Shown here one piece after another: positions 22,240-41,177 of a stretch of 64,000 nucleotides of DNA. The position numbers and the translations under genes were made by a program. Positions within the stretch are counted from its first letter, which is position 1. Every line of letters begins with the position of its first letter. This DNA is from Haloarchaeobius amylolyticus (GTDB lineage: Archaea; Halobacteriota; Halobacteria; Halobacteriales; Natrialbaceae). A model generated the notes under the pieces. The model worked only from the letters and a program-made list of their open reading frames with translations. It was not told where the DNA came from and ran no database searches. Where the stretch lies: the NCBI RefSeq assembly GCF_026616195.1, contig NZ_JANHDH010000003.1, positions 186,001 to 250,000 of the forward strand, given 5' to 3'.

Positions 22240-23937
22240 CTAGCTAGTCCCTCCCTCGATCAGCCAATCAAGCAGTACCAGCAGCAGGCCAACGAGTCCA
22301 AGTACCACCAGAAGCCAGGCGATCGGGGATACGAAGAGCGCTTCGAGACTCCCCAGAATCAGCAACATGGCGAACACACCGACCCAGATGAGATGTTTGC
22401 TGTGTCCGTGGCGAGCTCCCAGCGAGATCTCGGGGAGATAGAATCCGAGTACGAGTGCCGGAACAATTAAAAACATGATGACGACAGCGGATTCGAGAGA
22501 CATCCTCCCAACGGAAATCCAGGTGACGAATGCGACAAATTGGAGGGCTACGGCACTCAGGATGACCTTACCTTCGTCGTCAGCAGATCGTATGTCCTTC
22601 TCCTCCACCGCTCTAGTAGCATAGAAGAGATACAGAAGCGCCCCCGAGCCAGTCGTGTATACCATCGCAGAGAACGGGTGGTGATCGAAACTAGAACCAG
22701 ACGCGGCGGTCAGGGACAAGAACAGTAACAGACTCATCGGAACGACGAGACCTCCCCTGGGTCGAGCGACAGGCGATGGCAAGTCCGCATCCTGCGTGTC
22801 CAGTGGAACAGTTCCTCTGTGTTCTCTTTCCCATTCTTGGAGATACTGAGGGACCCGATACATCTCTCGCAGCCAGAACCACAGCGTGTACGGACCTACG
22901 AGCATTTGAGTCACGACCCCACCAACGAAGCCCAAGGTGCGATAGAACCCCCACGACCGGCTGGAAAGAGTTCTCTGGGCCCATGCCTGCTGGAGTTCGT
23001 GGTGCAGGATGGTGAGCCCGAGAAGTGTATTCGCAAAGACGAGGACGGCAGCCATCGCCGTTCCCAGGATGATCGCCCCAAGAACCGCCCCTCCCTTCCG
23101 GCTTCGTAGACAGTACCGGGTCAGAGATCGGAGTCGACTCCCGACAGCAAAGAACTCCCTCTCTGTCGTATTCTCTTTCCCGGTTATTGCTATATACGCA
23201 GTAAGCCCCAGAATAGCCATCTCAGGAAGTGGAAACAGCACGACCCCGATGATAGCGGTGAGTCCGAAAACCACACACAGGAGAGACAATCGAACACTGA
23301 TATTGAACAGCGCCGCCACCTGCGCTGCCTCACCTTGCCACCCCGGAATGTCGGCTTCAGTGATATATAGTGAGAGCGTACCGGCATCCAACCTGCCTGA
23401 TTGCGCCCACACGGCCGCTTGTGTAGCAGGAGCGAGTCGAAACCAGCCTACGTCACGAGCGAGAATCAACACGAATACAACCACCGAAACCCCGACGGTT
23501 CCGATCAGCAGAACGCCGACCTCTGCGACCGAAGCGATCCCGAGCGAAGATCCGACCGATGCTGGAACGTCTCGTATGTAGATGAATACGTCCGGAGGGA
23601 AGGCGGTTCCAAGCAGTGCTCCGAGGAGGGTCGAGAAGAACCCTACGAGAATCCGGGCCGCCGGATACTCCGCTATCGAGGGGGACAGAGCGGATTGCTC
23701 GTCGCGTATCCAGTCCGGAGGTTCGGCCAGGACACCCTCTAGAGCCACCTCACTTGTGACATAGAAGTACAGCAGCCATTGCGAGATAGTCCCGACGAAC
23801 CACAACGGGTCGACGAAGGCAGTTGTCACCCCCGATATGAACTCGACGACGACCTGCCACCCGAGGCTGTTACCGGCGAGAACGGCCAACATGTTCCATG
23901 GTTGTGAGACCACGGAACGGAGGCTATCCAGGTCCAT
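22240..23937 (-). CDS. Polytopic membrane protein, family A (member 1)
   Basis: The 565-residue protein from ATG 23937 has roughly 11-12 hydrophobic helices. An extra 41-residue N-terminus from an ATG at 24060 is possible but has no counterpart in the paralogues. A conserved signature, LWFWLREMYRVPQYLQEWE, follows a TM helix in the second half and is repeated in altered form in the proteins at 27418-29028 (LWVWLREVQRLPYFLETWE), 45293-47017 (LWFWYHAIRRIPSLL) and 50508-52274 (MWFWVAEILRA). I know no function for this family. The amphipathic Arg-rich segment suggests a cytoplasmic docking loop. Confidence 0.75.
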   Translation of the reverse strand: MDLDSLRSVVSQPWNMLAVLAGNSLGWQVVVEFISGVTTAFVDPLWFVGTISQWLLYFYVTSEVALEGVLAEPPDWIRDEQSALSPSIAEYPAARILVGFFSTLLGALLGTAFPPDVFIYIRDVPASVGSSLGIASVAEVGVLLIGTVGVSVVVFVLILARDVGWFRLAPATQAAVWAQSGRLDAGTLSLYITEADIPGWQGEAAQVAALFNISVRLSLLCVVFGLTAIIGVVLFPLPEMAILGLTAYIAITGKENTTEREFFAVGSRLRSLTRYCLRSRKGGAVLGAIILGTAMAAVLVFANTLLGLTILHHELQQAWAQRTLSSRSWGFYRTLGFVGGVVTQMLVGPYTLWFWLREMYRVPQYLQEWEREHRGTVPLDTQDADLPSPVARPRGGLVVPMSLLLFLSLTAASGSSFDHHPFSAMVYTTGSGALLYLFYATRAVEEKDIRSADDEGKVILSAVALQFVAFVTWISVGRMSLESAVVIMFLIVPALVLGFYLPEISLGARHGHSKHLIWVGVFAMLLILGSLEALFVSPIAWLLVVLGLVGLLLVLLDWLIEGGTS

Positions 23938-24637
23938 CTCTCGAGCGGTTCTGTATCTGTGAAAGGTCGTGTCTCCCTCTTGTCTCACCGGTGTTATCAA
24001 TGGTCTCGGTAGACTAGAAACTAGCCTGCCGAAAATACATAATAGTCGGTAATCATTCACATCACCTCCTGAGCAGTGAGCCAGGTTTACTGTAGCCTCG
24101 TCAAAGCCACGGAAAGCCGACAGCCGGCACGCATATTATTCTGCACCTAGCAACCAAGATATATCAAATAATATTTACTTCAATGGTGGCTCGATGGCTG
24201 TGCTCTCGGCCCGGGAGCCTCTCCGAGCGGAACACTGTCACGTTATACCTTGTTCATCTATAGGTTGGAAATCAGTTCAATGGAAGTTATCAGTATCAGA
24301 AATTTAGACGGTTAGGTTATCGATTATTCCGGGCATGTTGGTGTCAGAATGAGAGAGCTAGGAAGGCTGATGTCAACAAGATTCAATCGAAATCCCTTTA
24401 GAAACAGAATTTGGCTTCGAAAAAGTGCCGCCGAATCTTCTCCACCGTTCAATATTTCTTATATTTCTATCCGTGTCTAACCAAGGGGTATCCAAACCGT
24501 ATTCGGGCCCCTGTTCTACTCAACAATACTCGACCACCTAATGAGACCTCTCTCGAAGGCTCCCAGAGTCGAGTTCCGGCCTTCGAGCCAGCAAATGTTA
24601 TAAATACTATTGATTAGAATACCTGAATGTGCTGCAG
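23938..24637. other. 700-base AT-rich intergenic region
   Basis: No frame here shows coding bias. The short frame at 24411-24617 lacks a plausible start and uses rare codons throughout, so I leave it out. The region is clearly more AT-rich than the surroundings. It must hold the promoters for the divergent genes on both sides, including TTATAAA at 24598-24604 for the oxidoreductase gene. No tRNA, IS remnant or attachment repeat is apparent to me. Confidence 0.5.
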
Positions 24638-27417: not shown

Positions 27418-29028
27418 TCACAGGTCGTGGTACCGGGCGAATCCAAGCAGGCCTCCCGCTCCGAGTCCGATGATGCTGAACGAGACCGAGAAGATCCGAT
27501 AGCTCTCGGGGACGAACCAGGTGGCTACCGACGAAGCCGCCCCGATGGTCACTAGCAGGAATACCAGGCTGTACCTCCGGATATCATCGAACCTTTGCTC
27601 GTATCGCTCGATGTGCGGGATACTCGCCACGACTAGCAGCAACACGGTGACGGTGACCGGTAATCCGACCATGTCCAGTAGTCCTCCCTCCCCCACGACC
27701 GCCCTAATCAGCGATTTCAGCTCCGTCGCGCTCCATAGCGTCACCATCTGAAGTATCAGCCCCGACGTGATCCACAGGTTCTCATCGCCGACCTGCTGCA
27801 GCGGCTCTTGCAACGTGTACTTCACCGACACGAGACCGCCGATGACGATTGCGGGCCAGACGATTGCAAACACCCATCGCGTACTGTCCAGAAACGTCAC
27901 GAAGGTTGCCGAGGAAAGAAGGGCGAGAATCGGGAACGCGACGAACCCCCGCACCCTCGGTGCCGGTCGAGAGACGGCCGGAACCGCCCGTCCCTCCCAG
28001 GTCTCGAGGAAATACGGAAGCCGCTGGACCTCGCGGAGCCAGACCCAGAGTCCGTGACATCCTGCGAAGAACAGCAGGACCAACACCCCTATCCAGTCCC
28101 AGATGATGACCATCGCATCCAGCGACAGCGCCCCGGTGGAGGCTCCGAGCGCGGTCCCTATCATGCCCGACACGGCAGGTGTGAGATTCACAGCGACCAG
28201 AAGATAGCCCGCGGTGAGGAACAGGCCCATGAAGCAGTACATGGTCGAGAACGCTCCCTGGGTGCCTCTCGTCGCGTTCCTCACCGTCGAGATGAGAAAC
28301 CGCTCGATGTCGAAATCGAGTTCCAACAGCCGGTCCCTGTCCTTCCGAAGAGTGCTCTCGGGGATGAAACGCACCGCACTTGCCCAGGCGAGAAACAGCA
28401 CGTCAGGGACGGGAAACGCGTACACGAGCGTCTGGACCCCGAGCGCTCCCAGGAACATCGGGATCCCCAGCACGAACATCACAGCAAGCAGATAGAACGT
28501 CGTCGCGGTATATCCGAGGAGACCGTCGTACGCCAGGTCCGAGGTAATCTCGTCTCTGACCTCTTCCTTTGTTTCCAACGCGAACACGGCCAGCACATCG
28601 ACCACCCGCCCATCAGGGTTCAGCGGTCGCCAATCGTGAGCCACCATCAGGAACAACAACAGTGACCCACCTCCGATGACCGTCCCGGGTAAGATGATGC
28701 TGACGAGGGTCCCGGCAGCCTCTATCACCTGAAGGCCGATTCCGAGGATGACGGCCCCGACAGCGTAGAGAACCCTGAAAAGCGGGTCATCCCGGGGTCG
28801 AACATGCAGATACCTGTACGGGAGGTGGCCGAAGGTGTAGAACGCCACGCCGAACATCACCCACGTCGTCAGGAAGCTAACGGAGGTGCCGCCGAAGAGC
28901 CCACCGGTTATCGAGAGTAGCGGAGCGATAAGGTCCTCAGGCAGCCGTGCCACGATATCGAGGACCGCGGATGCTCCGAGCAACATCGGCCCCGACCACA
29001 GCCACTTCCCCCCTCTGGTTGCCACCAT
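27418..29028 (-). CDS. Polytopic membrane protein, family A (member 2)
   Basis: This 536-residue protein has about 12 hydrophobic helices and the family signature LWVWLREVQRLPYFLETWE near residue 330. After this comes a Pro/Arg-rich hinge and a four-helix C-terminal block, as in the gene at 22240-23937. GTATATTAC at about 29057-29065 on this strand is a suitable TATA box for a leaderless start at 29028. It heads the cluster of signalling genes that follows to the right. Function unknown; the topology (many helices, one conserved cytoplasmic amphipathic segment) does not match a transporter family that I know. Confidence 0.75.
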   Translation of the reverse strand: MVATRGGKWLWSGPMLLGASAVLDIVARLPEDLIAPLLSITGGLFGGTSVSFLTTWVMFGVAFYTFGHLPYRYLHVRPRDDPLFRVLYAVGAVILGIGLQVIEAAGTLVSIILPGTVIGGGSLLLFLMVAHDWRPLNPDGRVVDVLAVFALETKEEVRDEITSDLAYDGLLGYTATTFYLLAVMFVLGIPMFLGALGVQTLVYAFPVPDVLFLAWASAVRFIPESTLRKDRDRLLELDFDIERFLISTVRNATRGTQGAFSTMYCFMGLFLTAGYLLVAVNLTPAVSGMIGTALGASTGALSLDAMVIIWDWIGVLVLLFFAGCHGLWVWLREVQRLPYFLETWEGRAVPAVSRPAPRVRGFVAFPILALLSSATFVTFLDSTRWVFAIVWPAIVIGGLVSVKYTLQEPLQQVGDENLWITSGLILQMVTLWSATELKSLIRAVVGEGGLLDMVGLPVTVTVLLLVVASIPHIERYEQRFDDIRRYSLVFLLVTIGAASSVATWFVPESYRIFSVSFSIIGLGAGGLLGFARYHDL

Positions 29029-29462: not shown

Positions 29463-31076
29463 ATGGCTGAACAGATGTCCCAACAGCTGACACTCGACAG
29501 AATCGAGAACCGCGCAGGTGTATTTCGCGCCGAGATTCGGTTCGATATCCCATCGAATCTGCGGGGACTGACAATCGGCTGCCCCCCGCAGACGACAGTT
29601 ACCGAGGCCGACGGGTTCAGGACCGATGGCAGACAGCAACTCCGGTGGAACGGCAACCAGACCTCTCCAACTGCGACGATGCGTGTCGAGGTCGCCGATG
29701 GACGTGCGGGATTCGTCTCGGCGCATGTCGACACGGGCGCGTGGGCCATCGTCGAAGCACCCAGTGTCCTCAGTCGATGGCGCTTCGTCGGTGAACAGCC
29801 GGACTACCAGCGGTCGGTCACCGTCAGCGGAGATGGAGTGTCAAGTTCGGATGGGGCGTTGGTCTATCTGGGACCGCACGAGGAACATCGTCACACGGAC
29901 GGAGAGCAGCTATTGAGACTGGTCGTTCCAGAGTCAGCAGAACTGCAGGAGAACCCGCGTGACATCCTGGATGCGATGGCTACCGTGGGTAGCGCTCTCC
30001 GTGTCGGTGAGGCCGACCGTGAGGTCGTCGCCATCGCCGCCCCGACACGCCCAGTGAACTGGGGTCCCGGCGGTCTACAGGCCGGAGCCAATGGGTTCTG
30101 GGTTCGTGATACCGCTCGTCTCGACTCTCCGAACACCACCTGGCTCCACGAGTACGTCCATACACGCCAGAACTTCGAGACGACATCCCAGACCCGGTGG
30201 CTCGTCGAGGCGACCGCGGTTTATCTGGCCACCTACCACTCCTTCGTCCGTGGTGATATCGGTGAGCGCCCGTACTACGCACTCGTCAACGGGGACCGCT
30301 GTGCAGACGCTGTTCTGGGGCAGCCGCACTCGTGGTCCACCCCGTACGTTCCCTACAGCAAAGGAGCGAAGGTCGCGGCATGGCTCGACACCAAGATTCG
30401 TGCACATAGCACTCGATCGCTGGAGGATGTCCTCTGGGCCGCCAACCTCGCCGACTCGACGCTGGACCTCGAGTCGCTCGAACGATTGACCGCGTCTGCT
30501 ATCGGTGGCCAGACCGCAGATCCGGAGGTGGACTCTGTCCTCTCGAGACTCCACGACTTCGTCATGACCCGGGAGACACCAGCAGAGTTCCTCCCGGCAG
30601 AACTCGAGCAGACGCCGAGTGACCCGACCCGTATCGGGGCCCACGAGGGTGTGACGCTCTCTGACGCTCTGGCAGAGGCGTTCGGAGACGTTCTCGGCAC
30701 GGAGATAGTCGACGGAAGTGGCAAGGTGGACGAGGGAATGGTCTTCCGATCCGATTCCGCAGACAGTGTCATCAGCGCGAGCGATATCTTCGATGCAGTG
30801 GACTCCATCGACGCGGGTGGCATCTCGGTCATCGGTCCGGACGACCGCATCGTGAGCGACGTTGGGGACGGGGAGAACGTCGTGTCGTCGCCGGCCCGTG
30901 ATGGCGATACCACGTCGGATGAGGGACCCGATATGATATTCACGGGTGAGCAATCTCCTGGTTCGGGAGGTGACCATGCCGATGACACGCTCTGCACGCG
31001 CTGTCGACAACCACTTCCCGCGGCAGAGACCCGTGTCTGTCCGAACTGTGGATGGGTCCAAGAACGTGACCAGTGA
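29463..31076 (+). CDS. HExxH metallopeptidase-like protein with C-terminal zinc ribbon
   Basis: The 537-residue protein has an N-terminal beta-rich domain (1-190) resembling that of M1/M61 gluzincins. The catalytic core has His229-Glu230-x-x-His233 in WLHEYVHTRQ, with a candidate third ligand Glu249 in RWLVEATAVYL. About 130 residues of acidic linker follow, then a CxxC...CxxC zinc ribbon at the C-terminus (CTRCRQPL and CPNCGW). No signal peptide or TM helix is visible, so it should act inside the cell, which is unusual for haloarchaeal peptidases of this class. It sits beside the kinase/phosphatase operon, whose products also carry zinc ribbons. Substrate unknown. Confidence 0.75.
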   Translation: MAEQMSQQLTLDRIENRAGVFRAEIRFDIPSNLRGLTIGCPPQTTVTEADGFRTDGRQQLRWNGNQTSPTATMRVEVADGRAGFVSAHVDTGAWAIVEAPSVLSRWRFVGEQPDYQRSVTVSGDGVSSSDGALVYLGPHEEHRHTDGEQLLRLVVPESAELQENPRDILDAMATVGSALRVGEADREVVAIAAPTRPVNWGPGGLQAGANGFWVRDTARLDSPNTTWLHEYVHTRQNFETTSQTRWLVEATAVYLATYHSFVRGDIGERPYYALVNGDRCADAVLGQPHSWSTPYVPYSKGAKVAAWLDTKIRAHSTRSLEDVLWAANLADSTLDLESLERLTASAIGGQTADPEVDSVLSRLHDFVMTRETPAEFLPAELEQTPSDPTRIGAHEGVTLSDALAEAFGDVLGTEIVDGSGKVDEGMVFRSDSADSVISASDIFDAVDSIDAGGISVIGPDDRIVSDVGDGENVVSSPARDGDTTSDEGPDMIFTGEQSPGSGGDHADDTLCTRCRQPLPAAETRVCPNCGWVQERDQ

Positions 31077-31102: not shown

Positions 31103-31699
31103 TCACTGGCCAGACTCGACACCATCTTCGATCTCTACACCACAGGCCGGGCAATATGTGCAGGCCATCAGCTGGTCCAACGAGGCACCACAATCTGAGC
31201 ACACTGCACCATCGCCGGTAGCCCTCTCTTTGGCCGGGGGGTCCTCATTCGGTCGATGTAACACTGTCTCCAGTTGACCCTCCGATCCCCTGTGGCTCTC
31301 TTCGCCGAAAGGATCGTCCTCACTCAGGGTGAACGGACTCCTGAAGGCACCGGATAGACGACCGACGCCCGCTTCGATTGGGAGGTAATCGAGGGTCACT
31401 ATCGATCCGAGCGTCACGACGAACACGAGGGTGCTGTGCAACTGGTAGAGGTAGATGGTACCTCCAGCGGCGACCAGAACGAGGAGTCCGAGCCCGGTCC
31501 TGATACGACCACCTGCGGTCGGCCAGAGCATGGCGAGCAACTCGAATCCAGAGTACAGACCGACCACGGCCAGTATGGCGGAGTGAGATATCAGGTCTGG
31601 TGAGAGGACTCGTCGAACACCCTCGATGGTCGTGATGGCGATGAGAAGTGCAAGAAGCACCCTCGCGACCACGGCCCTGATATCGCTCTGTTCGTTCAC
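31103..31699 (-). CDS. Membrane protein with C-terminal zinc ribbon
   Basis: This 198-residue protein has about four TM helices in its first 110 residues (for example SAILAVVGLYSGFELLAMLW and GLGLLVLVAAGGTIYLY). An acidic linker and one zinc ribbon follow: CSDCGASL...CTYCPACGVE. It is the last gene of the apparent operon running leftwards from 36239 (kinase, FHA protein, kinase, PP2C, this gene), 33 bases after the phosphatase. A membrane-anchored zinc ribbon could be a docking point for the cytoplasmic partners. It converges with the peptidase gene. No named family is recognised. Confidence 0.7.
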   Translation of the reverse strand: MNEQSDIRAVVARVLLALLIAITTIEGVRRVLSPDLISHSAILAVVGLYSGFELLAMLWPTAGGRIRTGLGLLVLVAAGGTIYLYQLHSTLVFVVTLGSIVTLDYLPIEAGVGRLSGAFRSPFTLSEDDPFGEESHRGSEGQLETVLHRPNEDPPAKERATGDGAVCSDCGASLDQLMACTYCPACGVEIEDGVESGQ

Positions 31700-31732
31700 G
31701 GTTCTCGGCCAGTGGGAGTGTCGTCGACGGTG

Positions 31733-32749
31733 TCAGGACCCATCGGCGATCGTCTCTCCAGACTCCAGGTCCCGTTCGGTCTCCTCGGAACGTTCGTACG
31801 TTCGGACGAGGTCCTCTCGCCCTGCCTGTACCATAGTCTCCTGTCCGGGGTCCGTGAACAGGAGCGTCGAGATGTTGTCGGAGCCACCCCGGTTCACTGC
31901 GAGGTTCACCAGGCGTTCTGCAGCGACATCGAGCGTCTCGCTTTCGAGAACACGGGCTGCAATCTCGTCATCTGTGACCACCGATTCACGAATCTCCGCG
32001 ATGATCGCTTCCTCTTCGTCCCGTTCCCTGAGGTACTTCTGATAGAGTTGACTCGACCGGTCGTACGCGTCGATGAGCCCATCGCTGGCGAACAGGATGA
32101 TGTCATCCCCGAATATCGGGACGGAGTTCGTCTCGACCTCCACGGTGCTCCCGCCGACCGCACGTGTGATGACGTTGTTGTCGTCATGGACTCGAGCGAC
32201 CGTCGGGGACAGAGACTCTTCCTCGACGTAGTGTTCGACGACAGAATGATCGCGCGTGACCTGTTCGATAGATTCCCTGCTCTGGTTGATGACATATGCT
32301 CTGCTATCTCCCACCCACCCGAGATGAAGACTTCCTCGGGCGTAGACACCGACGACGACGGTCGTCTTGGCATCGTCCGTCAGATCTTGAATCCGGTCAT
32401 CGGCCATCGCGACCGCGTCCCTGATAGCATCCCGAATCGCCTCCTCCTCCGGTGGATTCGGAAGCTCCGAGCTATCGAGTCCCAGGTCCTTCAGGATGGG
32501 ATTCCCGCCGCGCCCAAGCTGTACGACGAGGTCTGAGAGTTCCTCGGGAATGATCGTCGTCGCCAGATAGGAGGCGATGTCACCCGCATCGTGCCCGCCC
32601 GCACCATCGGCCAGGACGAAGGCACCGACCGATTGCCGCCGTCTGTCACGATGTGTCTCGTCGAACAGCAGTGACGCCACGCTGTCCTCGTTGACGCCCC
32701 CCTGGCGCTCTTTCACCTGCCCGATGTCGACCTGGGTCGAGTAGCGCAT
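31733..32749 (-). CDS. PP2C-type protein serine/threonine phosphatase
   Basis: From ATG 32749 the protein has 338 residues and all main PP2C motifs. These are Glu21-Asp22 in VNEDSVAS, ADGAGGHDAGD (48-57) with the metal-binding Asp and Gly, GWVGDSRAY, LASDGLID, and GSDNIST with the late metal-binding Asp. All metal ligands are present, so it should be active and Mn/Mg dependent. A C-terminal acidic tail of about 35 residues follows. The start excludes 34 residues that overlap the end of the kinase gene. It lies 25 bases downstream of the first kinase gene on the same strand, giving a classic kinase-phosphatase pair acting on the same targets. Confidence 0.95.
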   Translation of the reverse strand: MRYSTQVDIGQVKERQGGVNEDSVASLLFDETHRDRRRQSVGAFVLADGAGGHDAGDIASYLATTIIPEELSDLVVQLGRGGNPILKDLGLDSSELPNPPEEEAIRDAIRDAVAMADDRIQDLTDDAKTTVVVGVYARGSLHLGWVGDSRAYVINQSRESIEQVTRDHSVVEHYVEEESLSPTVARVHDDNNVITRAVGGSTVEVETNSVPIFGDDIILFASDGLIDAYDRSSQLYQKYLRERDEEEAIIAEIRESVVTDDEIAARVLESETLDVAAERLVNLAVNRGGSDNISTLLFTDPGQETMVQAGREDLVRTYERSEETERDLESGETIADGS

Positions 32750-32774
32750 AGGAAACAGTTGTTTTTCCGATGTT

Positions 32775-34043
32775 TTAACCTTTTGTCCAGTGGTCCCCCT
32801 CGAACCGGAACCCACCACGAGATGCGTCGGTACCCGGGTATATCTGGTCACCCGCTAGCAACATCCGACGTGTCGGAACCGCTCGCTCTATGTCATGGGC
32901 CTGCTGTCCCCGAGCACTTAGCAGCAGATGTTGTTCGTCGTTACGGTCCAACAACGTTCCGTTGAGGCTGGTGTCTTCGAGGAACCAGGGGCCCCCTTCA
33001 CGAACGAAGCGCGCATGCTGGCGGGAGACTCCTGTATCAGAGGGGGGAGATGGGACGGTGACGGCCGAACCACCCACCCGACCAATCGAATCCCCATCCG
33101 AGACCTCGTACGTGGTGTCGGATTCCAGCTCGCGGATGACTGCTGTCGCCGCAGGGGGACGCGGGTCGTTCGCCGCCAACGCCTGTCCCAACGCTCCAGC
33201 GTGTTCGTACCGTTCGGCCGGATCGGCCGCCGTCGCGCGGAGTATTATCTCGGCCAGCGACGACGAACACTGTATCTCGGGTTGCTCACGCGGATCCTCC
33301 CCAGGTGCCTGCGTGATGAATCCGCAGACGAGCAGGAAGAGAATCTTCCCAAGCCCATAGACGTCGGTCCACGGACCAGGAGCGAGAGCCGGGTTCTCTT
33401 GTTCCGGTGCCTTACAGCGGTTCTTGTCCGCATCGCCGACCATCGTAATCGGCCCAGGGGCGTGCCCGCACTCGTGACAGGTGGGTTCTGTGGCAGCGTC
33501 CTGGGTGACAGACGCCCCACACTCCGAACACTGGAACCGGCATCGTACTGTGTTGAAGTCGACGAGCATCGGTGCCCCGTCATCTGTCACGATGATGTTA
33601 TCGGGCTTCATATCCCGATATATCAGCCCGAACCGATGGAGGGCCGCGACGCCGGAAGCAAGCTTCACCCCGAACGTTCGTATCGTTTCTTCATCGCCTA
33701 TGTACGGCGTGTCATCCAGCGTCTCGCCTTCGATGTAGTCGACGACGATGAACGTGGTCCCGTCCGCCGTGAAGTGGTCACGGTATCCAAGTAACGATGG
33801 ATGGCCCCCCGCCGCAGCCACGGTTCGCAACGCGCGAAGTTCACGGTCGAGATAGACCTCGCTGTCGAGACCGGAGTGACGTGGCCTGGGATACTTCACC
33901 ACGACGTGTTCGTCCGTGTCGAGCGCCCTGGCTCGATAGACCCGTGAGAATCCACCGACCGCGATGCGCTCTTCGAGCTCGTATGCCTGGTCTCCCTGTC
34001 GAAAGATATCCCCTCCCGATGGATGTCCCGGCTCAGCCGTCAT
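32775..34043 (-). CDS. Ser/Thr protein kinase with activation-segment zinc ribbon and FHA domain
   Basis: The 422-residue protein has a eukaryotic-type kinase domain (about 20-290). It shows the glycine loop IAVGGFSRVY, Lys50 in VVVKYP, Glu68 in the C helix, the catalytic loop YRDMKPDN (Asp144) and DFN (162-164) in place of DFG. Between DFN and APE (212-214) there is a CxxC-x13-CxxC zinc ribbon (Cys172, 175, 189, 192). A C-terminal FHA domain (about 310-400) carries GRVGG, SRQHARF and TSLNGT, the phosphothreonine-binding residues. No TM helix is present. It lies between the FHA protein and the PP2C gene with short gaps, so it is co-transcribed with them. Confidence 0.93.
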   Translation of the reverse strand: MTAEPGHPSGGDIFRQGDQAYELEERIAVGGFSRVYRARALDTDEHVVVKYPRPRHSGLDSEVYLDRELRALRTVAAAGGHPSLLGYRDHFTADGTTFIVVDYIEGETLDDTPYIGDEETIRTFGVKLASGVAALHRFGLIYRDMKPDNIIVTDDGAPMLVDFNTVRCRFQCSECGASVTQDAATEPTCHECGHAPGPITMVGDADKNRCKAPEQENPALAPGPWTDVYGLGKILFLLVCGFITQAPGEDPREQPEIQCSSSLAEIILRATAADPAERYEHAGALGQALAANDPRPPAATAVIRELESDTTYEVSDGDSIGRVGGSAVTVPSPPSDTGVSRQHARFVREGGPWFLEDTSLNGTLLDRNDEQHLLLSARGQQAHDIERAVPTRRMLLAGDQIYPGTDASRGGFRFEGDHWTKG

Positions 34044-34091
34044 TCTATCTCCTCCGCCAGCTTGCTTGCCCCGGAATCGATCCGAGGACCA

Positions 34092-34889
34092 TCACCCGAA
34101 CCGGACGGTCGCTTCACCGGTCCCTGCGAGGACGAGTTCGTCGCCTTCGTCGAGTTCGTACTCTCGATTCGGGTCCATCGTATCCCCGTTCAGCTCCGTT
34201 CCGTTCGCTGATTCGAGGTCGACGACCTGAAAATGCCCCCCTGACTTCTTGAACAGAAGATGCTGGCGGCTGATTCGCATCGCGTCGTTGGTCGACACCC
34301 CGTGGTCGTTGAGATGCTGACGGATCTCGGATCCGAGACTCGTCCCGTCCTTCGCCTCCATGGTCCCGGCTCTCTCGAAGTCCAGATACACCGTATCACC
34401 GACCGATGGTTTATCCGGCGTGTCGGCTGGGTGCGCACCATCGTCTTCGCTAGAATCCGACCCTGCACCGCCGGGTAGTGACTGCTGGCATTGCGGACAG
34501 ATGGACATCCGCTCGTCGATGCCCTCGTAGTCACAGTTCGGGCACGCATCGAGAGCCTCAGGTTCATCCTGACTCAGGTCCGCCGTACAGTAGGGACAGG
34601 CTGCCCAGTCGGGCTCGACCGGTTCATCACAGGAGGGACAGACCGCTTTGTCGGCTGGACCATCATCGGCGGGACGGTTCTCCTCATCGTTCTTGTCATC
34701 CACCTCGGGTTCGTCGACAGGGTCGTCGACGTCGCCGGCGGGATGTCCGGCCGGTGGGCTGTCATCTGAGCCCTCTTCGCTGTCCGCCTGGTCTCGCAGT
34801 TCTGGAATCGGGTTTCCGCAGTCCGGACAGAACGGGTCACCATCGTTGGGTTCGATATCGTCCTGACAGAAAGGACAGTGGACCGTCAT
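34092..34889 (-). CDS. Three-zinc-ribbon FHA protein
   Basis: From ATG 34889 the 265-residue protein starts with a zinc ribbon (CPFCQDD...CPDCGNP). An acidic linker of about 60 residues follows, then two more zinc ribbons (CPSCDEP...CPYCTAD and CPNCDYE...CPQCQQS). A C-terminal FHA-like domain (about 165-265) contains RISRQHLLF and ESANGTELNG. FHA domains bind phosphothreonine, so this is probably a reader or scaffold for the two neighbouring kinases. It has no catalytic domain. The gene lies between the two kinase genes on the same strand with gaps of 48 and 102 bases. Confidence 0.88.
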   Translation of the reverse strand: MTVHCPFCQDDIEPNDGDPFCPDCGNPIPELRDQADSEEGSDDSPPAGHPAGDVDDPVDEPEVDDKNDEENRPADDGPADKAVCPSCDEPVEPDWAACPYCTADLSQDEPEALDACPNCDYEGIDERMSICPQCQQSLPGGAGSDSSEDDGAHPADTPDKPSVGDTVYLDFERAGTMEAKDGTSLGSEIRQHLNDHGVSTNDAMRISRQHLLFKKSGGHFQVVDLESANGTELNGDTMDPNREYELDEGDELVLAGTGEATVRFG

Positions 34890-34991
34890 AACAGCCGGTT
34901 CAACTCGTGCCATCAAAACAGTTACGGCGTTGACACCCTCTCCGCGAAGTTCGTCTTCGACCCACCAGACGTCATCACTCCGCCGAAGCGA

Positions 34992-36239
34992 TCAGGTGTG
35001 GAAGACGAACTGCTCCCCGTCGTTCGGCCGATGGATTCCGATCTTCGTTCCTTCCTCCAGTACCGAATACTGTGGCGGGGCATCCTCTGCAGGCCCGTCG
35101 TACGAATCCTCCGCGATGATCGGCCGCCAGCCACTCCCGTCGTCTATCGCGGTTCCGTTCTTGCTCTGATCGACGATTATCCAGCCCTCGGAGCTGATGT
35201 CGAACCGTGCGTGGACTCTCGATATCAGTTTCTCGTCGGTCGGGTCGTCGATCTCGATGGTCGAGTAGGGCCCCGACGAGTTCTTCCGGCCGATGGTATC
35301 ACCGGGTCCGACAGACAGGCGTCGACCCGTCTCGAGGTTCTCCAGCACTGCTTCCGGCAGGGTCGGGTCTGCGGTCTGGTTCTCGAGGGCTCGCTTCATG
35401 ATGCTGGCATTCCGATACCGTTCTGTAGGGTCGTGACGCGTCGCCCGAACCACTATCTCACCGAGGAAATTCGGACAGTCGTCGTGGTCCTCCTGCGGGT
35501 TCCGCCCAGGTAGCGGTCGTACGAACCCCAGCAGGAGGAAGTTGAGCAACTTCCCGATGGAATAGACGTCCGACCAGGGACCCTGGCGACCCACCGCATT
35601 CGCTACCTCTGGAGGCTTGTACTTGCTTTGTCCTCTCGCTCCGGCACGGATAACCGTGCCAGAATCGAGTTCCTCGTTACAGTTCGGACAGTGGTCACTG
35701 TCGAGGTTATCGAAGTTGATCGTCTGTCCGCACTCACCACAGCGGGCTCGATGTCTGGCCGTGTTGAAATCGATGAGGACGACACGCCCACTGTCGGTGA
35801 TCATGATGTTGTCGGGCTTGAGGTCCCGGTAGACCAGCTCTAAATCGTGGATATGGGAGAATATATCGCAGGTCTGGATACCGATATCGACCACCTGGCT
35901 GTGATCGCCCATCCCCGCCAGTTCCTCCATCAGTTGCCCATCCACGTACTCGACGGCCATGAATTCAGTTCCCTTCTCGGTGAAGGTCTCATGAAGGGAC
36001 ATGATATTGGGATGTCCACCGGCTTGTTCGATCGCCTGAAGTGAGTTCAGTTCACGCTGGAAGTACTTCTCGATGGCCTGCTGTGACTTACCAGCGTTCG
36101 GGTTCGGATGCTTGATTGCGACCACGTCCCCTCGGTCGTTCCGGGCTCGCCAGACCACTGAGAACCCGCCATCGCCGATGCGCTCCACCAGTTCGTACCG
36201 GGAGTTCAGGACCTCGCCGGCATCCGGTTCCCACATCAT
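34992..36239 (-). CDS. Second Ser/Thr protein kinase with activation-segment zinc ribbon and FHA domain
   Basis: This 415-residue paralogue of the kinase at 32775-34043 has the glycine loop IGDGGFSVVW, Lys43, catalytic loop YRDLKPDN (Asp139) and DFN (157-159). A zinc ribbon follows (Cys167, 170, 184, 187), then PPE (209-211) and a C-terminal FHA domain (GRKNSS, SRVHARF, QSKNGT). Both kinases keep the catalytic Lys and Asp residues, so both should be active. It is the first gene of the leftward operon and is divergent from the VWA gene across a 145-base promoter region. The two adjacent Met codons leave the start ambiguous by one residue. Confidence 0.93.
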   Translation of the reverse strand: MMWEPDAGEVLNSRYELVERIGDGGFSVVWRARNDRGDVVAIKHPNPNAGKSQQAIEKYFQRELNSLQAIEQAGGHPNIMSLHETFTEKGTEFMAVEYVDGQLMEELAGMGDHSQVVDIGIQTCDIFSHIHDLELVYRDLKPDNIMITDSGRVVLIDFNTARHRARCGECGQTINFDNLDSDHCPNCNEELDSGTVIRAGARGQSKYKPPEVANAVGRQGPWSDVYSIGKLLNFLLLGFVRPLPGRNPQEDHDDCPNFLGEIVVRATRHDPTERYRNASIMKRALENQTADPTLPEAVLENLETGRRLSVGPGDTIGRKNSSGPYSTIEIDDPTDEKLISRVHARFDISSEGWIIVDQSKNGTAIDDGSGWRPIIAEDSYDGPAEDAPPQYSVLEEGTKIGIHRPNDGEQFVFHT

Positions 36240-36384
36240 CTGTTGTATTTACAAGATAATCCCAACGACATTACTGTTGTGCCAGTCTGGAAGGAGGCAG
36301 GATGCTGCCCGGGTCTCCATGGACACCGAGCAAACCTGTTAGCTCGCCAAAAGTATTAATAATCATTGAACAGTTTCATCCTGC

Positions 36385-37599
36385 ATGGAACTTGAAGCAC
36401 GGCTGAACAGGCCGTACATCAGTCCGGATGGGGGTGCGGTCTACGGGGAGATCGATGTCGATCCCGACGAGATTCAGGGTCAGGGCGGGAGTTCGACTCG
36501 ACACATCGCGTTCTGTATCGACGTGAGTACGTCGATGAGCGGCGATCCTCTACACCAGGCGAAACAGGGCTGTTCTTCGGTTCTCACCCAACTGAACCCC
36601 GACGACCACGTGAGTATCGTCGCATTCTCGTCGAACGCGGAGGTCATCCTCGAACCAGTCCGGTTTGGTGACACCTCTGCAGGCGAGATCGAGGACTACA
36701 TCGACGAGCTGGAGGTCCGACAGGCCACCAACATAGAGGACGGTCTTAAACTGGCCCGTAGCACCATCGAAGACCTCGGCGATGCTGGCACTGTCGCGAA
36801 GCGCATCCTGCTGCTGTCTGATGGCGAGCCGAATACCGGGATGACCGATGTCGACTCCTTCGGGACTCTGGCGAGCGATTTCGGCGATGCAGGTCTCTCG
36901 ATAATCTCCGCCGGCTTCGGCACCCACTACGACGAAGACATCATCCGGGTCATCGGAGAGGCCTCACAGGGTGAGTGGGACCACCTCTCGGAGGCGAACC
37001 AGATCATGCAGTTCTTCAACGACACCGTCTACGAAGCCGGTGAAGTGTCACTCGCAAATCCGCGGCTCGAACTGGATCTGGATGGCGTTGAGATCAGTCA
37101 GGTCTATCGTCGGATGCCGCAGATCCAACAGGTCGACGCTGAGTGGGGTGGAACGGACGTGACCATTAATCTGCCCGACATCCAGAAGGGGAACAAACAG
37201 GAGGTCGTTCTACAGATGGACGTCTCCGGTGGCGCACTCGACGAAACCCAGACGATTGCCGATATCACCCTCTACAGCGACGATCAGGTGGTCTCGGAGG
37301 ACTCCTTCGAGGTCACCTACACCGACGAGCCTGCAAAGTACGGCGAAGAAGAATCTGTCCGTGCAAAGTTCGTCCACGCACAGGGCTTCCAGCAAGGACT
37401 CGAAGGCGACACCGCCGTCGCGAGCCAGCTTCTGGACAACCTCGAAGGGACGTTCAACGACCCGCAGGCGAAGGCGATCCTCCGTCGCGGTCAGACGTCC
37501 GTGAGCAAGATGGAGGACGCAGACTCGGTCAACGAGCGGCGGTCCGTCGCAGCAACCGAATCACGGACGGGCGAGGCCTCCGACAACTTCATCTACTGA
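36385..37599 (+). CDS. VWA-domain protein (TerY/CoxE-like), cytoplasmic
   Basis: The 404-residue protein has a VWA domain (about 38-215) with a complete MIDAS: Asp46-x-Ser48-x-Ser50 in CIDVSTSMS, the Thr in QATNIEDG, and the Asp in LLLSDGEPNTG. A beta-sandwich (about 220-320) and a C-terminal helical part (FQQGLEGDTAVASQLLDNLEG) follow, as in bacterial VWA proteins linked to kinases. No signal peptide or TM helix is seen. AGTATTAATAATC near 36350-36362 gives a leaderless start. It is divergent from the kinase operon and is followed on the same strand by the tubulin-like gene. Its flexible Gln/Asn/Thr tail (after residue 360) could be a phosphorylation target. Confidence 0.92.
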   Translation: MELEARLNRPYISPDGGAVYGEIDVDPDEIQGQGGSSTRHIAFCIDVSTSMSGDPLHQAKQGCSSVLTQLNPDDHVSIVAFSSNAEVILEPVRFGDTSAGEIEDYIDELEVRQATNIEDGLKLARSTIEDLGDAGTVAKRILLLSDGEPNTGMTDVDSFGTLASDFGDAGLSIISAGFGTHYDEDIIRVIGEASQGEWDHLSEANQIMQFFNDTVYEAGEVSLANPRLELDLDGVEISQVYRRMPQIQQVDAEWGGTDVTINLPDIQKGNKQEVVLQMDVSGGALDETQTIADITLYSDDQVVSEDSFEVTYTDEPAKYGEEESVRAKFVHAQGFQQGLEGDTAVASQLLDNLEGTFNDPQAKAILRRGQTSVSKMEDADSVNERRSVAATESRTGEASDNFIY

Positions 37600-37845
37600 C
37601 CGTTTCACCCGAGAACGAGAGAGACAAGGTGAGGTGCCGGTTGGAAACCGGTCTCCAACTCGACCCCGCACTGTGACACATCGCTTTGTGGATTAACAGA
37701 CCGATGGAACGGGTAGTCCCGCTGTGATTCTTCCGAATGGGACAGGTCTCTGCGATTATCTCCATCGACCTACCAAGACCCGTGTAATTCTTACTGATAT
37801 GGACATAATCATTATCAGTTGTCCCTTCGTTGGGAGACATGACGA

Positions 37846-40311
37846 ATGAGGCCAACAATCTGTATTGGAGTGGGCAAGGCGGGGTGCCGGATGCTGGACG
37901 AGATCGAGTCTGTTGTCGAGGAAAACGGAGCACTGGATAACTTCGGCTTCATCGGCATCGACACGAACCAGGACGACCTCTACGAAGAGGCGCCGGACCG
38001 AACTCGTCCTATCGAACTCGACGAGCCTTCGGATCAGAAGTGGGAGACACACAAGAACGAGTACAGTTATCTGAATCCTGAATTCACTCTCGGGAACTAC
38101 CAAGGTGTCAGTCGGAATCGACCACTGGCACGGTACCACATCGACTCGAGCGAGAACTATGCCGACGTCGATGAGAGCCTCGAGGAACATATCTCCGATT
38201 TCAAGTCCAGTTTCAGAGATGGTTCCGGGGCAGACCAGATCGATATCTGGGTACTCAACTCGCTCGGTGGGGGCACCGGAAGTGGTTCCTTCCTCCTCAT
38301 CACGGCGATGGCACGAAATGCGGCCAGCAGAATCCAAGGCGCTTCGTTCTCCATCGGTGGGGTTGGATCACTTCCACGTCTAGACAATCTACCGAATCTG
38401 TCGATGCCACCGAAGGCCAGAAGCACCTTCTTCGCCAACGCCTATACCGCGATCCGTGAGCTGCAGGAGGTCAACGATTTTACCAAAACCAACCATTCCT
38501 GGAGTTCACCATCGATTCTACTGGAGAACGATGTCTCGCTCGACGATGCCATCGACTGGGACGGGAACCTCTTCGACATGTACTTGATGACCGGATTCAG
38601 GGAGTCAGAGAAAGAGGAGTCTTCCGGACAGAACCGTCCCTATCGCCGTCAGATGAACCGTATAGTGGCGAACAGTATCTACTACGTCGCCAACAAGTCG
38701 ATGGATAACTTCCCCGACACGAACAAGATGAGCGGGGAGAAGCTGTTCGCCGTCAACGGCGTCGAACTCCGGGCTCCGGCTGAGGAAGCCCGCGAGTTCG
38801 TCGAACTCCAGTCGAAGATAGACTCCCTCGATACCGACATCGAAGAACTGGACGAGGAGATTACCGGGCACGAGGAGACCATCGACTTCCTGCGCGAGGT
38901 CGAACGACTCGACCTACAGCCAGATTCACCACCTACCGCGGAAGATCTTGAACATATAAGTATCGACCTCATCGACCGTATCTACTCCAAGCATACCATC
39001 TTCAGCCCGCGAGGGGCATTACAAGATGTCGACGCCGACCCAGAGGTGGACGTCGAAGCCATCGAGAAGGTTCTCGAGGAGAACATCGAGGAGATTCTCG
39101 ATGATCCAAGTGCGGAGATGCCTGACCCGGAACCGATTCCGGACTTCGACGCCGATGATCCAGAAGAGAACCTCATCCGAGAATTCGATGAGTCGGATAT
39201 CGTCCAACGGTTCTTCTGTGGTCTGGTCGAACAGTCGGTCGAACAGACCATCATCGAACACGATTTCAAACACCGGGTGAACAAGGTCTGGAACGAATAC
39301 AATGCGGAGATTCGGGAGCACATGGAGACCCCGGACCAGTTCGAGTACCTGGATAGTCGGAGTGCGGAGGTCAGATGGGAGAGCGAACTCAAGCAGTTCC
39401 TCAGTGAACTGGGCCAGCAGAAGAAGTCGGCTTTCGATAACACGATGTGGCCGGTCAAGAGGCTTCGACTGAAAAGAGAGGTCGAGGAGATCAAGACTCA
39501 TTACAAGAAGATAAACAGTCTCTACGCCGAGTTCGAGAAGTACGAAGCACTTCGGGAGAAATCAGCCCGTTGGAAGGAAGCCGCACGTCAGTCCATCAAG
39601 CAGGACGAATCATACATCGACAACGAGGTTATCGAAGATCAACGCGACCAGAAGTCGACGAAGCAGAACAAACTCCGGACCCACAGAGAGAACCTCGGCA
39701 GACGTCGCGACCAGATTACCACCCCGAAGCGTGCGGGTGGTGACTACCGTCTGCCACTCAAGGACATCGAGAACCTCGAGCGTTCACACGTCGACGACGA
39801 CTCCAGTATCGCCTCATTAGTTGCCGATGGGTTCATCGACGAAGCAACCGTGGCGAACGAGCTGAACAGCCTGTTGAACAACGAAGCTGCCCTCTTCGGT
39901 GACCCAGTTCAGGACCAGCCACAGCGCGATCCGACCAACACTTCGAAGCTTCTCTGTATCTTGACGCACCCCGATAACCGAGGCACTGAAGAGGTGGACA
40001 ACCTACTCGACCTCCCGCTCGAAGGTGGGATGGACATCGGGAACAGAATCAACACGGAGGCGGACGAACGGGAAGAGACCATCGCCGTCTCCGAAGGACA
40101 CTCGATTCGATTCCTCTCGCTGTTTGCACCGCTATCCTTCGAGAACACCAGCGAGTTCGGTGTCATCAACGAGGATTACCTGGACACCACGAAGAACGTC
40201 AGTGAGCATCTCGGTCCGGACTGCACCGACGGGGTCGTCATCCGGAAACACGCCTATCCTGAACTCTTCCCTGATGATGACCGGGTTCAGGATTACTACC
40301 AGAATAACTAA
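37846..40311 (+). CDS. Tubulin/FtsZ-superfamily-like GTPase with long coiled-coil region
   Basis: The 821-residue protein starts with a Rossmann strand and Gly loop, CIGVGKAGCRML (6-17). It has the tubulin signature GGGTGSG at 141-147 in the context LNSLGGGTGSGSF. These are the two hallmark nucleotide-binding features of tubulin/FtsZ proteins; NCBI-type names for this group are 'tubulin-like domain-containing protein'. The middle (about 315-360 and 540-630) is rich in charged heptad-like helices, far longer than in FtsZ (about 350-400 residues) or CetZ. No TM helix. Related FtsZ-like families were described (Makarova and Koonin) next to VWA proteins and linked to membrane remodelling. Here the VWA gene is the immediate upstream neighbour, 246 bases away. 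Confidence 0.88.
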   Translation: MRPTICIGVGKAGCRMLDEIESVVEENGALDNFGFIGIDTNQDDLYEEAPDRTRPIELDEPSDQKWETHKNEYSYLNPEFTLGNYQGVSRNRPLARYHIDSSENYADVDESLEEHISDFKSSFRDGSGADQIDIWVLNSLGGGTGSGSFLLITAMARNAASRIQGASFSIGGVGSLPRLDNLPNLSMPPKARSTFFANAYTAIRELQEVNDFTKTNHSWSSPSILLENDVSLDDAIDWDGNLFDMYLMTGFRESEKEESSGQNRPYRRQMNRIVANSIYYVANKSMDNFPDTNKMSGEKLFAVNGVELRAPAEEAREFVELQSKIDSLDTDIEELDEEITGHEETIDFLREVERLDLQPDSPPTAEDLEHISIDLIDRIYSKHTIFSPRGALQDVDADPEVDVEAIEKVLEENIEEILDDPSAEMPDPEPIPDFDADDPEENLIREFDESDIVQRFFCGLVEQSVEQTIIEHDFKHRVNKVWNEYNAEIREHMETPDQFEYLDSRSAEVRWESELKQFLSELGQQKKSAFDNTMWPVKRLRLKREVEEIKTHYKKINSLYAEFEKYEALREKSARWKEAARQSIKQDESYIDNEVIEDQRDQKSTKQNKLRTHRENLGRRRDQITTPKRAGGDYRLPLKDIENLERSHVDDDSSIASLVADGFIDEATVANELNSLLNNEAALFGDPVQDQPQRDPTNTSKLLCILTHPDNRGTEEVDNLLDLPLEGGMDIGNRINTEADEREETIAVSEGHSIRFLSLFAPLSFENTSEFGVINEDYLDTTKNVSEHLGPDCTDGVVIRKHAYPELFPDDDRVQDYYQNN

Positions 40312-40341
40312 TCGGTAATCCTTTTCTCCCGATCTACCGAT
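40311..40341. terminator. Inverted repeat with T-run between convergent genes
   Basis: ATCGGTA (40311-40317) and TACCGAT (40335-40341) form 7-bp arms around a loop containing CCTTTTCTCCC. It lies just past the tubulin-like gene and before the stop of the convergent coiled-coil gene at 40362, as expected of a shared terminator. The T-run is short. Confidence 0.4.
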
Positions 40342-40361
40342 AACCGAACCCGCCTGTTGGG

Positions 40362-41177
40362 TCAATCCTCCAGGAAATCATCATCTGACCCACCTGAACT
40401 CTCTTCAGGTCCTTCGAGGTCCCCGGTATTGATCAGATACCAGTAGACGACAGACCCTGCCAGCCCCAGAACTAGAAGGGCCGAGAGGGCCTTGCCGATG
40501 AGGCCCCACAGATTCCCGGAGTCGACCTGTGACTGGAGTTGCTGGTTCTCGGTCTTCAACTGGGCGTTCTCCGATTCGAGATTCGAGATCGTCTCCTCCT
40601 TCGCTTCGACGTCACTCTCCAGCCCAGAAATCGTCTGTTTCTGGTCGTCAACCTGTTCGGAGAGGCTCTCCACCTCCGATTGCTCGGACTGTAGCGCGAA
40701 GTACGACGAGTTCTCCAGCGACACACTTGCGCGAGACCGGGCGTCAAGATCTTGCCCGTTCTGGACGTAATCGATCTGTATCGTTGCGACGTCGAGTGAC
40801 TCCGCCTTGATTGTTCGTGGATAGGCCTCGAAGGTGATGGTGATGGTCTCACCACGTTCCAGTTCTTCCACCACGTAGACTCCGTCCCCCTGGTAGGTGA
40901 TGTTGATGTCGGCAGTGCCGGGTTCCGTGGTGCGCGTGAACGAGTTGAAATCGACGAACGAAGAACTCGTCTCATCGATTTCTATCCGGATATCCTTCAT
41001 CGTCGGTCCATCGGGAGTAATCGTCACGGTCGTGCTCACGGCCTGTGAGTCACCCTCCACGCCCTGATAGCTCGTTTCGACGGTGAGGTCGACCGCCGCT
41101 GCAGCAGGGGTCGCGACGAGGCTGACGATTAATCCCAGTGCGAGGACGACCACGATATTCCGTTTCCACAGACTCAT
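40362..41177 (-). CDS. Exported, C-terminally anchored coiled-coil protein
   Basis: The 271-residue protein has a Sec-type signal peptide (basic MSLWKRN, hydrophobic 8-22, Ala-rich cleavage region ATPAAAAVD). An extracellular beta-sandwich of about 120 residues follows. A coiled coil (about 165-215, repeated QVDDQKQTISGLESDVEAK-like heptads) and one TM helix (about 222-250) lead to an acidic cytoplasmic tail ending DDDFLED. It thus connects the outer face to the cytoplasm. A TATA-like CTTATATC lies about 25-30 bases upstream. It converges with the tubulin-like gene and is divergent from the family B membrane genes. It may act as a membrane receptor for the polymer, but that is inference. Confidence 0.82.
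   Translation of the reverse strand: MSLWKRNIVVVLALGLIVSLVATPAAAAVDLTVETSYQGVEGDSQAVSTTVTITPDGPTMKDIRIEIDETSSSFVDFNSFTRTTEPGTADINITYQGDGVYVVEELERGETITITFEAYPRTIKAESLDVATIQIDYVQNGQDLDARSRASVSLENSSYFALQSEQSEVESLSEQVDDQKQTISGLESDVEAKEETISNLESENAQLKTENQQLQSQVDSGNLWGLIGKALSALLVLGLAGSVVYWYLINTGDLEGPEESSGGSDDDFLED

Follow-up and report, generated by a model that had tools for sequence, protein, structure and literature searches.

Two Hanks-type Ser/Thr kinases, termed K1 and K2, are encoded in the window, a stretch of 64,000 nucleotides from Haloarchaeobius amylolyticus. The comparison of their sequences with those of their relatives supports a conserved four-ligand insert of the metal-binding type within the activation segment. 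Protein kinases are controlled mainly through this segment, which normally switches them on. We propose, with about even confidence, that by analogy with a known kinase the insert is a structural zinc site which would brace the activation loop as a folded unit and offer a surface for docking. A compact metal-braced activation segment outside eukaryotes, putative as it is here, has the CDC7-DBF4 complex as the only structural precedent that we found.

Overall features of K1 and K2

K1 (32775..34043, minus strand) and K2 (34992..36239, minus strand) comprise 422 and 415 residues, respectively, each with a kinase domain and a C-terminal FHA domain. Both exceed the Pfam cut-offs of 31.7 bits for Pkinase and 20.7 bits for FHA, K1 scoring 71.8 and 32.9 bits and K2 scoring 99.2 and 29.8 bits. 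The FHA domains (32940..33086 in K1 and 35139..35297 in K2, both minus strand) keep the GR, SxxH and NGT motifs. The hallmarks of Hanks-type kinases are present, namely the catalytic lysine, the αC glutamate, the aspartate and asparagine of the catalytic loop and the aspartate of the DFG motif. Alignment of 30 family members revealed that Lys43, Asp139, Asn144 and Asp157 are invariant throughout, in agreement with the sequence-only reading that the catalytic Lys and Asp are retained, and that the αC residue Glu63 is kept in 28. The AlphaFold models show a kinase core with pLDDT values mostly above 90 (means of 88 and 86 for the two full-length proteins), and the top Foldseek matches of K2 are PknB structures with an E-value of 5e-17. 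We regard K1 and K2 as probably active Hanks-type kinases that belong to a haloarchaeal VWA-kinase-PP2C-FHA-FtsZ-like cassette. They share the fold and the catalytic residues with the bacterial kinases of the PknB/Stk type, but differ in having DFN or DFT for DFG, a fused FHA domain and an enlarged, ribbon-bearing activation loop.

The glycine of DFG, which is usual and not strictly defining, is missing at this single position of a kinase domain that is otherwise complete and above the Pfam cut-off. Among the 30 aligned members the position is occupied by Asn in 22, Thr in seven and Gly in one. Since Asn or Thr is found in 29 of them and the ribbon in only seven, DFN/DFT is a family trait of the FHA-bearing haloarchaeal kinases. 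The earlier suggestion that DFN is coupled to the insert is thus not borne out, and DFN as part of a ribbon adaptation was rejected because ribbon-free relatives also carry DFN or DFT.

The cysteine insert in the activation segment

The activation segment extends from DFN162 to APE214 in K1 (33402..33560, minus strand, 53 residues) and from DFN157 to PPE211 in K2 (35607..35771, minus strand, 55 residues). Both contain the pattern CxxC-x13-CxxC as had been described, formed by Cys172, Cys175, Cys189 and Cys192 between DFN162-164 and APE212-214 in K1, and by Cys167, Cys170, Cys184 and Cys187 between DFN157-159 and PPE209-211 in K2. The K1 insert reads CSEC-x13-CHEC (33468..33530, minus strand) and the K2 insert CGEC-x13-CPNC (35679..35741, minus strand). 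Two CxxC-type knuckles spaced by 10-20 residues are typical of a zinc ribbon, and we use this term as a reading of the cysteine pattern, with zinc as the presumed metal and the ribbon as the presumed fold. Pfam ribbon models match the inserts under their curated cut-offs, the best being DZR with 22.5 bits against 27.3; the DZR match of the K2 insert is weak (E=1.3e-4). Short ribbon domains often score under curated model cut-offs. In the K2 model, short strands lie beside both CxxC pairs (165-166/173-174 and 183/190), as expected for knuckles.

The four ligands are the best-preserved part of the insert. A genome from another family of the same order, G656, encodes orthologues of both kinases, and all four ribbon cysteines of K1 are kept in its counterpart at 41% overall identity: of the 12 alignment columns in which at least one of the two proteins has Cys, only the four of the ribbon have it in both. 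All four ribbon cysteines are likewise common to K2 and its G656 orthologue, in which the last knuckle reads CPNPQC. One Halorubrum ezzemoulense kinase apparently has His as its second ligand (CPNGH). A His ligand and an altered knuckle spacer are usual variants of zinc ribbons. Across the seven ribbon-bearing kinases found, the four ligands (one apparently His) are maintained while the rest of the insert diverges. The presence of the insert in kinases of a second species also upholds the earlier view that it is not a sequencing artefact.

These data bear on the idea that the inserts are linkers which are tolerated but neither fold around a metal nor have a function. Most relatives manage without the ribbon, and the AlphaFold confidence is low to moderate in the insert (pLDDT blocks of 42-68 in K2, 50-63 across most of K1), which counts for such linkers and also weighs against the proposed brace. 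However, the four cysteines are selectively retained in divergent orthologues, and the motif hardly arises by chance: in 200,000 protein shuffles, CxxC-x6-30-CxxC started within the activation segment with a frequency of 5e-5 for K1 and 1e-5 for K2. We therefore consider tolerated linkers very improbable.

The sequence-only reading had put forward, besides a possible locking of the loop, a zinc- or redox-dependent switch, in which loss of the metal or oxidation of the cysteines would unfold the ribbon and toggle the kinase. CxxC pairs can be redox active, and the position within the activation segment suits switching. However, the cysteines are arranged as in ordinary structural ribbons, of which the same cluster encodes several, and the apparent His ligand in one relative fits a four-thiol disulfide switch poorly. 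The switch appears improbable on this evidence.

Comparison with CDC7 and proposed role of the ribbon

The human replication kinase CDC7 provides the nearest precedent, one that the sequence-only reading did not mention, as its zinc module holds the loop in the active shape (PMC7416108). In CDC7, kinase insert 2 extends the activation loop and ends in four zinc-binding cysteines; the resulting zinc finger anchors the loop to both DBF4 and the C lobe, and mutation of any of the four cysteines substantially lowers the activity (PMC7416108). The four-Cys zinc site of CDC7 is situated between the DFG and APE regions, as is the metal-binding-type module of K1 and K2 by sequence. In addition, a zinc-binding domain is present both in the activator DBF4 and in the FHA protein whose gene lies between those of K1 and K2. 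The two cases differ in the ligands, which in CDC7 are Cys351, Cys353, Cys360 and Cys363 (CxC-x6-CxxC) and close a long insert (residues 202-373). CDC7 is likened to K1 and K2 by the position of the insert, the kinship being that of protein kinases in general and the counterpart of DBF4 being only putative here. Such an activation-segment insert outside CDC7 was not found described in the largely open-access literature searched.

The CDC7 zinc finger favours an ordering or docking role of the ribbon over a switch. According to the proposed model, the activation loops of K1 and K2 are enlarged by a structural four-ligand zinc ribbon, which would impose a fixed shape on the activation segment and would anchor the segment either on the C lobe or on a partner protein from the cassette. 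The ribbon/FHA protein and the VWA protein are the candidate partners. The ribbon may thereby replace or supplement the flexible Ser/Thr-containing loop of the relatives. We infer the brace or docking role and the partner from what is observed, namely the motif, its position and conservation, the family context and the intact catalytic residues.

Distribution and origin of the ribbon

The ribbon is rare: a search for other kinases with the insert yielded seven ribbon kinases in four genomes, K1 and K2 included. Among the 30 aligned members these are the two kinases of the window, the K1 and K2 orthologues of G656, two kinases of Halorubrum ezzemoulense (G284) and one of a further genome, G174; the 23 ribbon-free members have zero or one Cys in the loop. 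Most relatives carry at the insert site, which is flanked by DF[NT] and by the KxPE that closes the segment, a variable Cys-free loop that is often rich in Ser and Thr. These pairs of ribbon kinases and close ribbon-free relatives offer a natural comparison, with and without the module, for the effect of a loop zinc module on activity.

With K2 as the query, a protein search matched 55 of the 391 class genomes at E<=1e-10. That haloarchaeal kinases generally carry the ribbon was rejected, as it occurs in three of the 391 class genomes in the first survey, which scored 12 candidates per genome and so may have missed some, and in four genomes overall. Outside these four, no ribbon kinase was found in 170, 125 and 146 genomes of three families. 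The best 80 bacterial contig loci among the matches listed showed no ribbon wherever the activation segment could be read, nor did the best matches from Myxococcota, Planctomycetota and Pseudomonadota (117, 104 and 105 genomes from the phyla to which an Archangium, an Aporhodopirellula and an Azospirillum record belong), and a bacterial kinase feature was rejected within this modest sample of best loci and best phylum matches. Plasmid-borne bacterial relatives amount to 149 records, every one below 60% identity, and among four weak relatives on viral contigs the ribbon is absent from the three readable ones. The Halorubrum ezzemoulense cluster also encodes a very divergent kinase (L063:11483-12304) with HTDLRPQN and DLG motifs and a ribbon of its own in the activation segment, without an FHA domain; it may be atypical or inactive.

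A tree of the family kinases was built without the insert columns, and the ribbon requires three changes on it. The pair of the window, the G656 pair and one Halorubrum kinase cluster together with weak support (72/85). A single clade that includes the G174 kinase was rejected (p-AU 0.017), and one that also includes the second Halorubrum kinase, a long-branch row, was rejected more strongly (p-AU 0.0046); a single origin of all ribbon kinases is thereby rejected by the AU test at p 0.005-0.02, with one row long-branched. In an earlier tree, from which the G656 rows were absent, the ribbon required four changes and the tests were weaker. Given the three changes and the rejection of a single ribbon clade, the ribbon was probably gained more than once, repeated loss being less likely than repeated gain. 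Probable repeated gain at one site suggests a selectable benefit.

The fraction of Ser and Thr is 0.09-0.23 in the ribbon loops and 0.22-0.33 in the majority of long Cys-free loops from the same clade. Since one Cys-free loop lies at 0.15 and the absolute numbers of Ser and Thr overlap, these fractions give a weak hint that the ribbon may partly replace phosphorylation of the loop. An extended proposal, which we regard as speculative and rather unlikely, would hold that the ribbon was acquired repeatedly and independently, that it replaces loop phosphorylation in ordering the substrate platform and that the FHA/ribbon or the VWA protein acts as a DBF4-like activator, in convergence with CDC7-DBF4.

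Gene cassette around K1 and K2

The cassette (31103..41177) begins with a membrane/ribbon protein, a PP2C phosphatase, K1, a ribbon/FHA protein and K2, followed by VWA and FtsZ/tubulin-like genes on the opposite strand. The membrane protein (31103..31699, minus strand) has a Cys-rich ribbon at its C-terminus, and its G656 counterpart shares 46% identity over 26 residues at the ribbon end only. The PP2C phosphatase (31733..32749, minus strand; Pfam PP2C_2, 38.9 bits) has no Cys and likely starts at an ATG, the listed reading frame opening at GTG 32851. The protein encoded between the kinases (34092..34916, minus strand) contains three CxxC..CxxC ribbons and an FHA domain (DZR 48.5 bits, FHA 40.8 bits). 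On the plus strand, the VWA-domain protein (36385..37599; VWA_2, 63.1 bits) has an intact MIDAS motif DxSxS (DVSTS), and the FtsZ/tubulin-like protein (37846..40311; Tubulin_2, 71.2 bits, cut-off 27) has the GGGTGSG motif. A protein with apparent signal/anchor segments (40362..41177, minus strand) shows 44% identity over 165 residues to one at locus L217, where the entire set of G656 is situated. The G656 set comprises VWA, the K2 orthologue (54% identity), ribbon/FHA, the K1 orthologue, PP2C, FtsZ-like, signal/anchor and membrane/ribbon proteins. The 20 regions examined each contain a K2-like kinase together with a VWA protein and a PP2C phosphatase, and 13 of them also encode a ribbon/FHA-like protein. 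Five other genomes of the same genus gave no match to K2 or the ribbon profile, and the cassette therefore looks sporadic; it was perhaps acquired horizontally.

Since ribbons are common in the neighbouring proteins, the insert could bind a partner without affecting the order of the loop. Its main role would then be that of a protein-protein docking tag which recruits a substrate or a cassette partner and does not directly influence the shape of the loop or catalysis. Comparable ribbons are present in the ribbon/FHA protein, the membrane protein and a nearby metalloprotease-like protein, and most cassettes with a ribbon-free kinase encode a separate ribbon protein. However, a mere tag would be easier to accommodate at a terminus than within the activation segment, where the insert lies, and both the window and G656 have a separate ribbon protein in addition to the kinase ribbons. 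A docking tag alone is possible but not the explanation we would expect, and we keep to the proposed structural brace and docking surface of the activation loop.

The combination of FtsZ-like and VWA proteins with kinases was described in 2010, from a haloarchaeal locus, as a predicted membrane-remodelling system (PMC2875224), and the K1/K2 cassette is in part this combination. Similar to the vWA/FtsZl1 operons (PMC2875224; Halorhabdus utahensis Huta_2050-2056), the GGGTGSG-bearing FtsZ-like protein adjoins a VWA gene with intact MIDAS and Ser/Thr kinases, whereas the main text of that paper contains no zinc, ribbon, FHA, PP2C or kinase insert. The ribbon kinases would also provide an entry point to this archaeal VWA/FtsZ-like phosphosignalling cassette, which is uncharacterised. 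VWA, PP2C, kinase and ribbons are also found in one cluster in the TerY-P-type triads. The K1/K2 cassette combines the same components, a likeness to be taken as a lead only, and differs in having FHA domains and the FtsZ-like protein in addition; the VWA protein of the window gave no TerY family match at E<=0.01.

Many cassettes contain a second FHA kinase (L067:8313-9524, L076:8869-10689 and similar) whose activation loop is very short and in which HLD replaces HRD, a non-RD companion of the RD kinase. Beside the cassette, a protein encoded at 29463-31076 (plus strand) has a metalloprotease-like HEYVH (HExxH) motif and a C-terminal ribbon CTRC..CPNC, with no Pfam match above cut-off. Two large membrane proteins encoded nearby (22240-24060 and 27418-29028, both minus strand) contain the similar stretches WLREVQRLPYFLETWE and WLREMYRVPQYLQEWE and look like paralogues.
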